From Muribaculaceae bacterium (GTDB taxonomy: Bacteria; Bacteroidota; Bacteroidia; Bacteroidales; Muribaculaceae), in the NCBI GenBank assembly GCA_029061255.1, contig JAIDSL010000102.1, forward strand, positions 1 through 64,000: a stretch of DNA of 64,000 nt, given 5' to 3'. How positions within the stretch are numbered: position 1 is the stretch's first letter; the number at the start of each line of letters is the position of its first letter. This document shows positions 58,645 to 64,000 of the stretch, one piece after another. Under the pieces are notes generated by a model. It was not told the origin of the DNA, did no database searches, and saw only the letters and a list, made by a program, of their open reading frames with translations. A program made the position numbers and the translations under genes.

Positions 58645-60528
58645 TCACTCAAGGAGATAGCCATGGGAGGCACAGATGGCGGTGAAGCGGTCCATTTTGT
58701 GAGTTTTGACGAGTGCCAGCATAGGGCCTGCCATGATGGTCATCTCACGGAGCTCCTTGTCGCTTAGCAGGAGTTCGCGGAGCCCTGGGAGGTTGCTCCG
58801 GAGCTTGAGCAGCGTGTATCCTCCGCTGTGCTGCGCGCAGTCGGTGTGCGTCAGCGCTTCGTCGATTATCTTCTTGAGCGATGTCTCCTTTTCAGGGTCG
58901 ATGATGGTCCGGAGATTGGATATGCGCTGTTCCAATTCAGCTTTTTTCTTGCATCCGGAGAGTAATGTCTCCTCAGAGATACGGAAGCGCGTGGGGCTTA
59001 TTCTTTTCGCCACTGTGGAGAGGAACATCTGGAAGGGTGAAGTCTCGTCGACTGTAATAATCCCATTTTTCCCGTCAAATTCCACGTTGCTTGCCCCCCG
59101 GGCGGATTTCGGTGTGTATTCGGTGTCGATGTCGAGGGCATATCTTCCTAATGCAGTGAGTCTTGCGTAGCGCATACCCTCCATCGGGTCATTCCCGCTG
59201 TTCTCCGTGTCGGTATCCATGGCTATCTCCACCATCCCGAGCGCGCAGAGATACTTCACCCAATGCAAGGCAAACTTGAATCCGACCTCCTCAAACCAGT
59301 CGATCGGCTCGATCCTGTCGATTCCCCGCTCCTTGTCTGTTTTGCTTACGAGGTTTGCCTTTCGGAGGCCTTCTTCATTGAATAGATTGAGATGTATGTA
59401 GTTGCGATTCCCCTCTATGGTGGAGCACAGGAGCTGCATCTTAAAGTTGCTCATATCCATCCATTCATCTTTTGCTGCAGTGAGGATATACTGCACGATT
59501 CCGGTCACATTGTCAGCATACGAACCGATGGTCCAGGATTTTGTGAAGCCCTGCATGCCAGGGATGAAGGAGTTGAACATCGGGCCGATGATAAGCCTCG
59601 GCATATATTCTACTGCAAACTTCGCCAACTGCTTGATGTCGATATCCTTTTTGCCATCGGCTCCCTTTTTGTCGCGGATTGTGAAGTAGGTGAGGCATAG
59701 CATTTCCACCCTGTCGAGTGGCCATGGGCTGCATTCGTGCTTGAAATTGCCGATAGGGGTCTGGCTCTTTACCCTTTTCAGTGCTGAAGTCGATATTGAG
59801 CCGTTGGCTGCCAGCATCGAGCCGTTGAGCGCCACTCCTTCGAGTGTCATGAGGTCTGAGACGATGGCCTGCTCGAAATCCTCGGTCTTGAGATGAGCGT
59901 CGGCTGGTAGTTGGGCGCTCAGGTGTGGAAGTCTATAATCCTTGCCGAAGAATAAGTCGGAAAGGGCTATGCGTGTGCTGACATCCATACTCAGCAATCC
60001 GTGGCGACGATAATCTCTATAATCACGCGAATATGTCTCCCACACGGATGTCACTGTCAGGGGGGCGAAGAGCAATTCGGCAAAATAGCTGTAGTGCCAG
60101 CTGTAGCCTGAGGCTACCGTTACCTCTCGCCCTAATTGCTGCTTGAGCGAGGGAGATTCAACTTCCAAGCTGGTGATGAGCCTTTTCCATGCATCTTCAT
60201 ATCTCTTGTCGGCCTTCGCTACTGCGAGCACATTTTCAAGCGACGCTCCGAATGAGTTGTAGACCTGCGTGAGCGCTGCCTCAGAGAGGGTATCGAGTCC
60301 TCCGTTGCGAAGATCGCGTAGGATACCTTTCATCTTCATCGCCGACAGTGGGGAAGCGCTGAGTTGGTCGTCCCGAACCATTTCCGCAAATGGAGCTATC
60401 AGTCCGCGTCGTTCCCTATGGTAGACAGATGATAGGCTACGCCCCGCATCCTTTACGCTTACGTTGTGGAGTGTCAGTATTCCGGCCTGGACTTTCCGGG
60501 CATTGTCTGCCTGAGTATTGTTTTTCAT
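58645..60528 (-). CDS. Uncharacterised 627-aa protein encoded with the SNF2 helicase
   Basis: Long uninterrupted ORF 6 bp downstream of the helicase gene on the same strand; no catalytic motif recognised; C-terminus (PTRFRISEETLLSGCKKKAELEQRISNLRTIID) weakly reminiscent of helicase-associated XPB N-terminal-like modules. Confidence 0.85.
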   Translation of the reverse strand: MKNNTQADNARKVQAGILTLHNVSVKDAGRSLSSVYHRERRGLIAPFAEMVRDDQLSASPLSAMKMKGILRDLRNGGLDTLSEAALTQVYNSFGASLENVLAVAKADKRYEDAWKRLITSLEVESPSLKQQLGREVTVASGYSWHYSYFAELLFAPLTVTSVWETYSRDYRDYRRHGLLSMDVSTRIALSDLFFGKDYRLPHLSAQLPADAHLKTEDFEQAIVSDLMTLEGVALNGSMLAANGSISTSALKRVKSQTPIGNFKHECSPWPLDRVEMLCLTYFTIRDKKGADGKKDIDIKQLAKFAVEYMPRLIIGPMFNSFIPGMQGFTKSWTIGSYADNVTGIVQYILTAAKDEWMDMSNFKMQLLCSTIEGNRNYIHLNLFNEEGLRKANLVSKTDKERGIDRIEPIDWFEEVGFKFALHWVKYLCALGMVEIAMDTDTENSGNDPMEGMRYARLTALGRYALDIDTEYTPKSARGASNVEFDGKNGIITVDETSPFQMFLSTVAKRISPTRFRISEETLLSGCKKKAELEQRISNLRTIIDPEKETSLKKIIDEALTHTDCAQHSGGYTLLKLRSNLPGLRELLLSDKELREMTIMAGPMLALVKTHKMDRFTAICASHGYLLE

Positions 60529-60534
60529 ATCTTA

Positions 60535-63327
60535 TTACGAGAGGATAAAATCGATGTCTTTCTCAGTTAGATGCTTGCTTGTTGCGGTGTCGGCGCTTAT
60601 GAGCTCATCAAAGAGCTCGCTCTTCTGCGATTGCAGCTGCAGCATCTTCTCCTCGATAGTCCCGACGGTGATGAGGGAATAGGAAGTCACCGTCTTCTTC
60701 TGCCCGATGCGATGCAGGCGGTTGATGGCCTGCTCCTCAGCAGCCTTGTTCCACCATGGCTCGAATATGTAGACAGTGTCGGCGGCAGTCAGGTTGAGCC
60801 CGACTCCTCCCACCTTCAGGGTCAGGAGCATCACCATGCATTCAGGGTCTCCTTGGAAACGCTCCACGCTTTTCTTGCGGGCTGTGGCAGACGAAGAGCC
60901 GGTCATGGTCTCAAACTGTATGCCCAATCTTTCGAGCTTGGATGCCACTATTTCCATACCGGCTAAGAAATTGAAGAAGACCACTGCCTTATGTCCGTTG
61001 CTGACCGAGGAGGTCAGGGAATCAATCAGTTCATCGATCTTCGGTGAAGATACCCTTGAGTCTGATGCGCTCTCGGGCACCGATGCAATTCTCCGCAACT
61101 CACTGAGTGCTTGGAACATCAGGAACTGCGACTTCTGCACGCCGTCGCGTGCGATAGCCTCGTCGATTTGCTTCTTATAGCTCAGGCGACGCTGGTCGTA
61201 GAGACGTTTCTGATTCTCTGACATCTCTACATAAAGAGTCTGGTCGATACGGTCGGGAAGATCGTCGAGCACATCTTTCTTGAGCCTTCTCAGAATGAAG
61301 GGGAAAATCTTGCGTCGCAGGCTCTCAGATGCATCTTTGTCGCCATATTTCTGTATGGGGGTTGTGTATGAGGCGTTGAAGTCGTCGAGCGAGCCAAACA
61401 TGGTTGGGTTGAGGAAGCGGAAGAGAGAGTATAGCTCGGTCAGGTTGTTTTCCATCGGGGTTCCGCTTAGGGCGAAGCGATGGCGGGCATCGAGCACCAT
61501 CACGGCAGCTGTGGTCTGTGCGGCGGTGTTCTTGATGTTCTGCGACTCGTCGAGCACCACGCATTCCCATTGGTGACGTCGGAACTCCTCGATGTCGTTT
61601 CTCACAAGCGCGTAGGTGGTCAGGACCACGTTGTGCGTCATAGCTTTCTCCATGTCGCGCTCCTGGGCATAGTAAGTGTAGTGGGTCAGCTGTGGGGCAA
61701 ACTTGTCGAGCTCCTTCTCCCAGTTGAAGAGGAGGCTTCTGGGCATGACGATGAGTGTCGGGGCTTGCGCGTTAGGATAGACGTTGGAGAGCAAGGCGAT
61801 GGTCTGCAGGGTCTTTCCGAGACCCATGTCGTCGGCGAGGCATCCCCCTAAGTCGTTCTTGTAGAGATAGTCGAGCCATTTCACACCCTCCTTCTGGTAG
61901 GGACGCAGGGTTGCCTCTACCTTGTATTCCGGGGCCTTGACTTTCTTGAGGTTGTTGAATCCTTCGAGCACTTCACGGCTACGGGCTACGAATGGCCCGG
62001 TCACTTTCTTCTGTATGAGCTCCTCCACATCAGGAAGGTCGAATATTGTCACCCGTATGTGTCCATCCTTGTCGCGCCGGCGGAAGAGGCGCTGCAGCCT
62101 TTGTATGTAGTTTTCGTCGATTATCCCTCTGTTGCCGTCGCTCAGTTGGACATATCGTTTGGAGGCATATTGCTTCAGGATATCGCCTATCGAGAAAGAT
62201 TCTCCGGCTATCTCCACGTCGCCGTCCCCTTCGAGGAAGTCGATGCCGGATGAGAACTTGAAGTTTACTTTCGGGATTGCCGCCACCACTTTGTATTCTT
62301 TCAGTTTCTCACTTCCCACGAGGCGGAAATCCTCGAGCACCTGCGGCAGCTGCCTTAGCAGGAATGGCCCGGCTGTCTCTTCCGGCACTATGAAGAAGTA
62401 TCCGTCGCGGTAGACCTCCTTTTTAGCATTGCGGCTCGGTGCACTCTGCAGGATTAGCGATTCAAGACGGGCAGCGCGCTCCTCAATGTCGCAATCCTCC
62501 ACCTTTCGGATGGAGATACGGCGGTCTTGCCCGATGCTTACGGCTACGGTGGGCGTCACTCCTGAGGGAAGGGAGGACCCAAGTGACTCAACAGTAGACC
62601 CAACCCTCAGGTAGAGTGCTTTGTCGGGTGCCACTTTTTCCAGGAAGAGTGTCGGCTGCGCATGCTCCGTATGAGATGAATAGCGTGGCCGAATCCCGTT
62701 GATCTCAGGAGTCACGTTGCTTACATAGGTGAGGAAAAGAGTCAGATATGACTCCAGCAGGTCTTTTTCTACAGGCGTAATAAGATGCATCACACTTCGG
62801 TAGTTGTCTCCCACGCTCTGAAGGGTGTAGACAGTTGAGTCGCATAATATATGGGTGTCGTCAAGTAGCACACCTGCTTGATATTCCTGGTCGGAAGCGA
62901 GGATTACGAGTTCCATGTCGGTAGTCTTTGACTCTTCGCTTTCCGAGATACGGAGTATGGCATAAGCCGGGTCATCGCTGAAGGAAATGCGTGTTGCATC
63001 GGGAGCAGCCACACGGCAATCAGCGGTCATGAAGCTCAGCAGGTGTGGATTCTCCCAGATGGAAGCGTAGATGCCCTCACTGTCATTGGCATCGAAGAGG
63101 CCTACGGCGGTATATTCCGCTATTCGGTTGAGTTCCCTTTTCAGGCGTTTTTCAGCGGGAGAGAGGAGAGTGCCGGAATCCTGCGACAGCAAAAAAGGCT
63201 CCCCGTCGCGCAGTGCGATTCGGAAAGCGCACTTCTCCTTGCCGGAAGCAGAAGTGTGTCTGTTTTCATTGCTTATCGGCCTCAACGAGGCGAACATACT
63301 CTCGAAGGCTTCTCTCTCCTCCATCAT
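60535..63327 (-). CDS. SNF2/RapA-family DEAD-like helicase
   Basis: GVKWLDYLYKNDLGGCLADDMGLGKTLQTIALL, VVLDESQNIKN, LSGTPMENNLTELYSLFRFL, LTLKVGGVGLNLTAADTVYIFEPWWNKAAEEQAINRLHRIGQKKTVTSYSLI. ATG 63327 preferred over 63393. Confidence 0.95.
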   Translation of the reverse strand: MMEEREAFESMFASLRPISNENRHTSASGKEKCAFRIALRDGEPFLLSQDSGTLLSPAEKRLKRELNRIAEYTAVGLFDANDSEGIYASIWENPHLLSFMTADCRVAAPDATRISFSDDPAYAILRISESEESKTTDMELVILASDQEYQAGVLLDDTHILCDSTVYTLQSVGDNYRSVMHLITPVEKDLLESYLTLFLTYVSNVTPEINGIRPRYSSHTEHAQPTLFLEKVAPDKALYLRVGSTVESLGSSLPSGVTPTVAVSIGQDRRISIRKVEDCDIEERAARLESLILQSAPSRNAKKEVYRDGYFFIVPEETAGPFLLRQLPQVLEDFRLVGSEKLKEYKVVAAIPKVNFKFSSGIDFLEGDGDVEIAGESFSIGDILKQYASKRYVQLSDGNRGIIDENYIQRLQRLFRRRDKDGHIRVTIFDLPDVEELIQKKVTGPFVARSREVLEGFNNLKKVKAPEYKVEATLRPYQKEGVKWLDYLYKNDLGGCLADDMGLGKTLQTIALLSNVYPNAQAPTLIVMPRSLLFNWEKELDKFAPQLTHYTYYAQERDMEKAMTHNVVLTTYALVRNDIEEFRRHQWECVVLDESQNIKNTAAQTTAAVMVLDARHRFALSGTPMENNLTELYSLFRFLNPTMFGSLDDFNASYTTPIQKYGDKDASESLRRKIFPFILRRLKKDVLDDLPDRIDQTLYVEMSENQKRLYDQRRLSYKKQIDEAIARDGVQKSQFLMFQALSELRRIASVPESASDSRVSSPKIDELIDSLTSSVSNGHKAVVFFNFLAGMEIVASKLERLGIQFETMTGSSSATARKKSVERFQGDPECMVMLLTLKVGGVGLNLTAADTVYIFEPWWNKAAEEQAINRLHRIGQKKTVTSYSLITVGTIEEKMLQLQSQKSELFDELISADTATSKHLTEKDIDFILS

Positions 63328-63362
63328 ACTTAGTGATTTATATGAAATGCTTAATGTTTTTG

Positions 63363-63394
63363 CAAATATAGCGAAATATTGGTTGAAAACCAAA
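63363..63394 (-). promoter_or_regulatory. Bacteroidetes-type promoter for the SNF2 operon
   Basis: Plus-strand CAAATATA 63363-63370 (TATATTTG on minus) and CAAA 63391-63394, 20-bp spacing. Confidence 0.6.
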
Positions 63395-63422: not shown

Positions 63423-63452
63423 TTTGTTTATGGGAATTTTTTCGTATATTTG
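63423..63452 (+). promoter_or_regulatory. Bacteroidetes-type promoter for the right-edge Cas6-like gene
   Basis: TTTG 63423-63426; TATATTTG 63445-63452. Confidence 0.55.
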
Positions 63453-63554
63453 TGCTTTGATTCAATCGAAAACTGTAAATTGAGTCTATCTAATGAAAAA
63501 GTGGAATCTGTTTCCTGCAAAAAATTTCAAACCGACCAAAAAGTATCTGACATC

Positions 63555-64000
63555 ATGGAGAATATCGATCCTGAGGAAATGACAGAAATACAAAAAAATG
63601 ATTCGACCCGGTCAATCCATATGGCAATGGCTGTGTTCGAAGACTTGATCTCTCCTGAAGAGTTGCGCTTTTTCAGAGGAGTGGTAATAAATCTTTCTGA
63701 TAATACCCCGCTGTTTCACAATCATGTCGATACCGGATACCGCTATAGCTATCCCAAGGTGCAGTATAAATTGCTCGACGGACATCCTGCCGTCCTCGGC
63801 ATAGGCGAGGGAGCCGACGCGGTCACGGATCTCTTCGCAGGGATAGATTCACTGTACTGCCGTCTCGGGCACTACAATCGTCAACTGCGTCTTACTTCGC
63901 TCGCAGACTGGCATGATGAAATAGGGATAACCGGGAATCAATACACCTATTGCATTGAGAACTGGCTTCCACTGAATTCCCGAAATCTTAAGGAATATAG
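63555..64000 (+). CDS. Cas6b-like CRISPR-associated endonuclease, N-terminal part (truncated by window end)
   Basis: Frame open to edge: MENIDPEEMTEIQKNDSTRSIHMAMAVFEDLISPEELRFFRGVVINLSDNTPLFHNHVDTGYRYSYPKVQYKLLDGHPAVLGIGEGADAVTDLFAGIDSLYCRLGHYNRQLRL...; the FRG..I...FHNH...YRYPxVQYK...xxGIGEG pattern fits Cas6b N-terminal domains. Frame stays open upstream to TTG 63480, so the start is uncertain. Confidence 0.65.
   Translation, partial: MENIDPEEMTEIQKNDSTRSIHMAMAVFEDLISPEELRFFRGVVINLSDNTPLFHNHVDTGYRYSYPKVQYKLLDGHPAVLGIGEGADAVTDLFAGIDSLYCRLGHYNRQLRLTSLADWHDEIGITGNQYTYCIENWLPLNSRNLKEY

Follow-up and report, generated by a model that had tools for sequence, protein, structure and literature searches.

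The window analysed here (the whole stretch of 64,000 nucleotides, bases 1-64000 of the 72123-bp contig C5) ends inside an open reading frame whose translation recalls the CRISPR RNA-processing enzyme Cas6b. The question raised by this locus is whether the truncated gene does encode Cas6b and, if so, whether it opens a CRISPR-Cas locus or represents an orphan RNase. The source genome, placed in Bacteroidales on the basis of its relatives, is a draft of 3.66 Mb in 228 contigs (86.6% complete). Sequence beyond the window was considered both on C5 and on a second contig, C118. Feature coordinates are collected in Table 1 (C5 coordinates correspond to those of locus L003 + 62000).

The motifs FRG, LFHNH, YRYSYPKVQYK and GIGEG, on which an earlier note had based its reading, were found on the plus strand at the place it had indicated, and its assignment to the Cas6b N-terminal domain was borne out by the Pfam profile Cas6b_N, matched by the truncated 148 amino acids (3.7e-21, 75.6 bits for a cut-off of 25). 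A profile search with the full reading frame had been set beforehand as the refuting test; the 237-aa protein matched both Cas6b_N (1.1e-20, 74.1 bits, cut-off 25) and Cas6b_C (3e-26, 92.3 bits, cut-off 39.4), as well as the PADLOC profiles Cas6 (1.5e-42) and Cas6b (3e-39). NCBIfam profiles gave no match to this protein. In an alignment of 36 sequences, FRG, L-HNH, RY-YP--QYK and a C-terminal lP--iGlGK were kept, and the motifs first quoted were among the most conserved positions. Cas6b from Methanococcus maripaludis (PDB 4z7k/4z7l) likewise possesses both the N- and C-terminal domains, its HNH and Y-YP--Q-K motifs aligning in register, but the relationship is distant (2.2e-17 with 4z7k) and the gene described here, from Bacteroidales, is part of a type III-D operon. 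The histidines of the LFHNH region are presumably catalytic, in keeping with work on the Methanococcus enzyme. Judged by its sequence, the window-edge gene is cas6b, encoding a predicted CRISPR RNA-processing enzyme; the genome contains one Cas6 and one Cas10.

The feature had been given a start at position 63480. The frame is indeed found there, but this position falls in what appears to be an untranslated leader: the start codon is likely the ATG at 63555, a start near there being supported by the relatives. Translation from the point where the frame opens (63450) is disfavoured, because that position lies inside a promoter-like site.

A CRISPR-Cas locus had been suspected just outside the window, and a complete type III-D effector operon does start within 7 bp of the end of cas6b. 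Inspection of the downstream sequence, which had been proposed for cas genes and arrays alike, thus yielded cas10 and further cas genes, but neither a CRISPR array nor cas1 was found on C5. The seven genes are all on one strand, with intergenic gaps below 30 bp or negative, and all are uninterrupted with conserved motifs. An array at the end of C5 was considered and rejected: directly 3' of the operon lies a terminator-like hairpin (a G+C-rich inverted repeat followed by a T-rich stretch), and C5 extends no more than 87 bp past the last operon gene. An Rfam search of contigs C5 and C118 returned nothing.

Besides the PADLOC matches listed in Table 1, the NCBIfam models TIGR04423 and TIGR03986 scored above cut-off in the operon. 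The csx10 call rests on PADLOC, because the score with NCBIfam's Csx10 model was 12.4 bits for a cut-off of 177. In Cas10, Cas10-Cmr2_palm2 was above cut-off, and the palm type was the sole type of Pfam model matched; the motifs HADGNGLG and SGDD are present, HADGNGLG being conserved and so, in 45 aligned sequences, being GDD. Among solved structures, Cas10 of the Synechocystis III-Dv complex comes closest (8s9t, 1.7e-39). ADvDaLV is conserved in the alignment of the Csm3-like protein. The presence of csx10 and csx19 marks subtype III-D, in which separate subunits characterise III-D1 and fused ones III-Dv, and Csx19 is a structural subunit between Cas5 and Cas10 in the III-Dv complex (PMC11026444). 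The operon resembles III-D1 as described there in having a Cas10 without an HD match, a Csm3-like Cas7, Csx10, a double Cas7, Csx19 and a TIGR03986 Cas7, all unfused; it differs in that the array, Csx1/Csx20 and an adaptation remnant are on another contig, and in the variable TIGR03986 tail among relatives. With the Synechocystis III-Dv complex it shares, besides Cas10, the double Cas7, Csx19 and the TIGR03986-family Cas7. That complex has a Cas7-Cas5-Cas11 fusion, which is absent here, the Csm3-like cas7, csx10, double cas7 and TIGR03986 cas7 being separate frames. We consider it very probable, as part of the model developed below, that cas6b is gene 1 of an apparently intact seven-gene type III-D1 effector operon. 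As a separate observation, the C-terminal tail of the TIGR03986 Cas7 (L003:9700-10036, about 110 aa) is perhaps OB-like here, while some relatives have a long coiled-coil-like stretch and another domain in its place and others nearly lack it; the structure model of this protein was too poor for use (pLDDT 34).

The expected position of the locus just outside the window therefore held for the effector operon, whereas the array, the CARF effector and the adaptation remnant are found on C118. The repeat TTCCATTAGAACAAGGATTAAGAC occurs as 17 intact repeat cores on this contig only, and the same repeat type is also found beside the cas operon in relatives. The arrays form five leader-plus-mini-array units (L079:147-7114) of two to eight repeats each, with 16 readable spacers; each unit opens with a conserved stretch of 300 nt that comprises the leader and the first repeat, terminal repeats are degenerate, and filler sequence is repeated between units. 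The arrays were apparently multiplied during or before the loss of the adaptation genes. A spacer-repeat unit perfectly duplicated beside a run of N (L079:5456-5591) is perhaps an assembly artefact. The repeat RNA forms no stable hairpin, and recognition by Cas6b would therefore be of an unstructured repeat. Directly after a repeat of one unit lies a truncated reverse-transcriptase frame, left over from an RT-Cas1 gene of which 70 codons, with a stop, can still be aligned; over 70 residues it shares 52% identity with the N-terminal part of the intact RT-Cas1 fusion of a relative (L008:16590-18797). Searches for cas1 and cas2 in the 86.6% complete genome found none, positive controls being detected; the genome being incomplete, this absence may be a mere gap. 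The spacers had no match in a phage collection, nor did four of them in an exact scan of IMG/VR, which says little because few phages of such bacteria have been sequenced.

About 16.7 kb beyond the arrays, C118 carries a cassette of three uninterrupted genes: csx1, csx20 and, between them, a gene whose product is a membrane protein with two predicted helices. Csx1 contains the R-X5-H motif (RRNHLNH). Csx20 is strong in PADLOC but scored only 20.9 bits with NCBIfam, far below the cut-off of 70. A search of the source genome for Can2/Card1, run without a positive control, found none. Csx1 and Csx20 are strongly associated, and Csx20 and the Csx1 family are linked to cA4 (PMC12409355). The present cassette is like the pairs described in that work in combining a CARF-HEPN Csx1 bearing R-X5-H with Csx20, and unlike them in the membrane-protein gene lying in between.

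Related loci were collected by Cas10, which gave 46 loci from named genomes, all labelled as Bacteroidota. The six genes that follow cas6 are in identical order in 38 of these and directly preceded by cas6 in 33; arrays of one repeat type (TTCCATTARAACAAGGATTAAGAC) adjoin many of the operons. Cas6 itself is patchy (14/150 related genomes), some of the 46 loci apparently coming from genomes of this same set, so that the two surveys are not independent. A CARF-HEPN Csx1, recognised by similarity to that of C118, is present in 26 of the 46 loci, Csx20 in 21, RT-Cas1 or Cas1-like proteins in 8, and a Can2/Card1-like protein (defined by clustering, its identity read from sequence) in 13. At L011, a CARF-adenosine deaminase gene (L011:13949-15988), followed by a Nudix-like gene, likely encodes the effector of that related III-D locus.

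Table 1. Coordinates of the features discussed (window positions equal C5 positions up to 64000; L079 and L083 denote loci on C118).
Feature	Location	Strand	Size, evidence or remark
SNF2-family helicase gene with unannotated 627-aa gene	window 58645-63393		
SNF2 promoter-like site, TTTG-N20-TATATTTG	window 63363-63394	-	pattern search; outside CRISPR system
cas operon promoter-like site, TTTG-N18-TATATTTG	window 63423-63452	+	pattern search; putative function
cas6b, 5' part	window 63555-64000	+	Cas6b_N and Cas6b_C above cut-off; PADLOC Cas6; PDB 4z7k
Cas6b core motif, LFHNH...YRYSYPKVQYK	window 63705-63770	+	retained in an alignment of 36 sequences; in register with HNH of 4z7k
cas6b in full	C5 63555-64268	+	237 aa; 3' part beyond window
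cas10d	C5 64275-65918	+	PADLOC Cas10d 3.3e-157
Csm3-like cas7	C5 65915-66532	+	PADLOC Cas7_IIId 4.8e-67
csx10 (Cas5)	C5 66537-68030	+	PADLOC Cas5_IIId/Csx10 1.2e-151
double cas7	C5 68057-69517	+	PADLOC Cas7_IIId 1.7e-147
csx19	C5 69501-69953	+	PADLOC Csx19 8.5e-36
TIGR03986-family cas7	C5 69940-72036	+	PADLOC Cas7_IIId 1.5e-136
RT-Cas1 remnant	L079:5023-5229	-	truncated reverse-transcriptase frame after CRISPR repeat
csx1	C118 23773-25170		465 aa; CARF-HEPN 1.4e-76
two-helix membrane-protein gene	C118 25184-25747 (L083:5184-5747)		187 aa
csx20	C118 25744-26130		Csx20 1.7e-35 (PADLOC)

We propose with high confidence that the C5 operon, the C118 arrays and Csx1/Csx20 constitute one type III-D1 system signalling through cyclic oligoadenylate. 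The model is built on observed gene identities, operon order, intact frames, conserved active-site motifs and the presence of both an array and an effector in the same genome; from these we infer that the C5 operon works together with the arrays and effector on C118, which signal molecule is made, and all of the activities involved. Cas6b would most likely cut the repeats of the C118 pre-crRNA in trans, and the resulting crRNA would be held by a backbone of the Csm3-like, double and TIGR03986 Cas7 proteins together with Csx10, Csx19 and Cas10. On binding of a complementary phage RNA, the Cas7 subunits would cut the bound RNA, and the palm domain of Cas10 would be switched on for synthesis of a cyclic oligoadenylate, probably cA4 because of the cA4 link of Csx20 and the Csx1 family (PMC12409355). 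This signal would activate the CARF-HEPN RNase Csx1 for RNA cleavage, and Csx20 would degrade it, resetting the system. In a survey of type III systems, an HD domain was found in just 3% of III-D Cas10 proteins and the conclusion was drawn that III-D acts mainly via cyclic oligoadenylate (PMC11229360), a view which fits the Cas10 described here, with its palm-type Pfam match alone and its HADGNGLG and SGDD motifs kept. Counted against the model are the location of the effector operon on C5 and of the arrays and Csx1/Csx20 on C118, the short and broken-up arrays, the failure of the spacers to match, and the lack of cas1/cas2 in the genome as assembled.

A rival reading is that the locus is decaying, its operon still intact while spacer acquisition is lost and a few old spacers provide at most residual defence. 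The reduction of RT-Cas1 to a short remnant with a stop, the failure to find a full cas1 or cas2 and the degenerate repeats that close the mini-arrays all speak for it, whereas the uninterrupted state of the seven operon genes, of csx1, of the membrane-protein gene and of csx20, the conserved operon motifs and the possibility that cas1/cas2 are simply missing from an incomplete genome speak against it; many type III loci, moreover, have no cas1 of their own. We judge such decay to be unlikely, though deserving of serious consideration, and retain the signalling system as the preferred model.

The 187-aa membrane protein of the cassette has two strongly hydrophobic N-terminal stretches, predicted to be membrane helices, and no match at a meaningful score was obtained with Pfam, NCBIfam or PADLOC. 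Homologues were found in 3 of the 297 genomes searched, namely the source genome and two others; in both of the latter the homologue adjoins a CARF gene, in one of them also csx20 and an array, and both carry a III-D cas6. The chance that all three have cas6, when drawn from 150 genomes of which 14 are cas6-positive, is about 0.0007, a figure to be read with the small number and relatedness of the genomes in mind. At the C-terminus, a unit that ends in IY-QWY occurs once in the protein described here and twice in each of the two relatives. Among the 46 loci, a profile search detected only a weaker relative, in L009, upstream of a Can2-like gene. The structure model (pLDDT 43) was too poor for fold comparison. 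Csx23 and Cap1 are membrane effectors gated by cA4 (PMC11014256, PMC12642688); the 187-aa protein resembles them in its two predicted N-terminal membrane helices, its soluble part and the adjoining type III genes, but matches no profile in the libraries searched, the likeness seen being one of architecture. By this analogy, we tentatively suggest that it may be an undescribed III-D effector or accessory protein responding to cyclic oligoadenylate at the membrane, a proposal for which the odds remain somewhat unfavourable.

The upstream side of cas6b was also considered. The earlier note had credited the gene with its own promoter and with divergence from an SNF2 operon, and promoter-like sites were found in back-to-back orientation in the intergenic region. 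Both sites follow TTTG-N17-21-TANNTTTG, which we take to be the Bacteroidetes promoter consensus; 12 such sites occur in the window, for 0.65 expected in shuffled sequences. The divergent arrangement and the mere 28 bp between the two promoter-like sites might suggest that the SNF2 helicase and the adjoining 627-aa gene are working parts of the CRISPR system. Both genes are missing, however, from the fetched flanks of related cas loci (0/46), and a genome of the same genus without cas6b (G012) has the same pair, with 82% identity for SNF2, and different genes at this position. A role in the system is accordingly very improbable, and the SNF2 gene is an unrelated neighbour. One of the genes that G012 has at the site holding cas here is TIR-like by eye; as a guess from this one comparison, the site may be one at which defence genes are gained and lost.

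The other option initially offered, an orphan RNase that processes RNA outside CRISPR, could draw on the lack of a CRISPR array on C5, but is ruled out for practical purposes by the six type III-D genes directly downstream, by dozens of relatives whose genes are arranged likewise and by a matching array elsewhere in the genome. The choice between CRISPR operon and orphan RNase is thereby settled for the CRISPR operon. The operon is an ordinary type III-D1 one, and the only element that is possibly new is the small membrane protein, with two predicted helices, encoded between csx1 and csx20. The locus adds a well-supported Bacteroidales case of III-D1, with effector operon on one contig and arrays and signalling genes on another, and flags a small membrane protein as a candidate type III effector worth testing.
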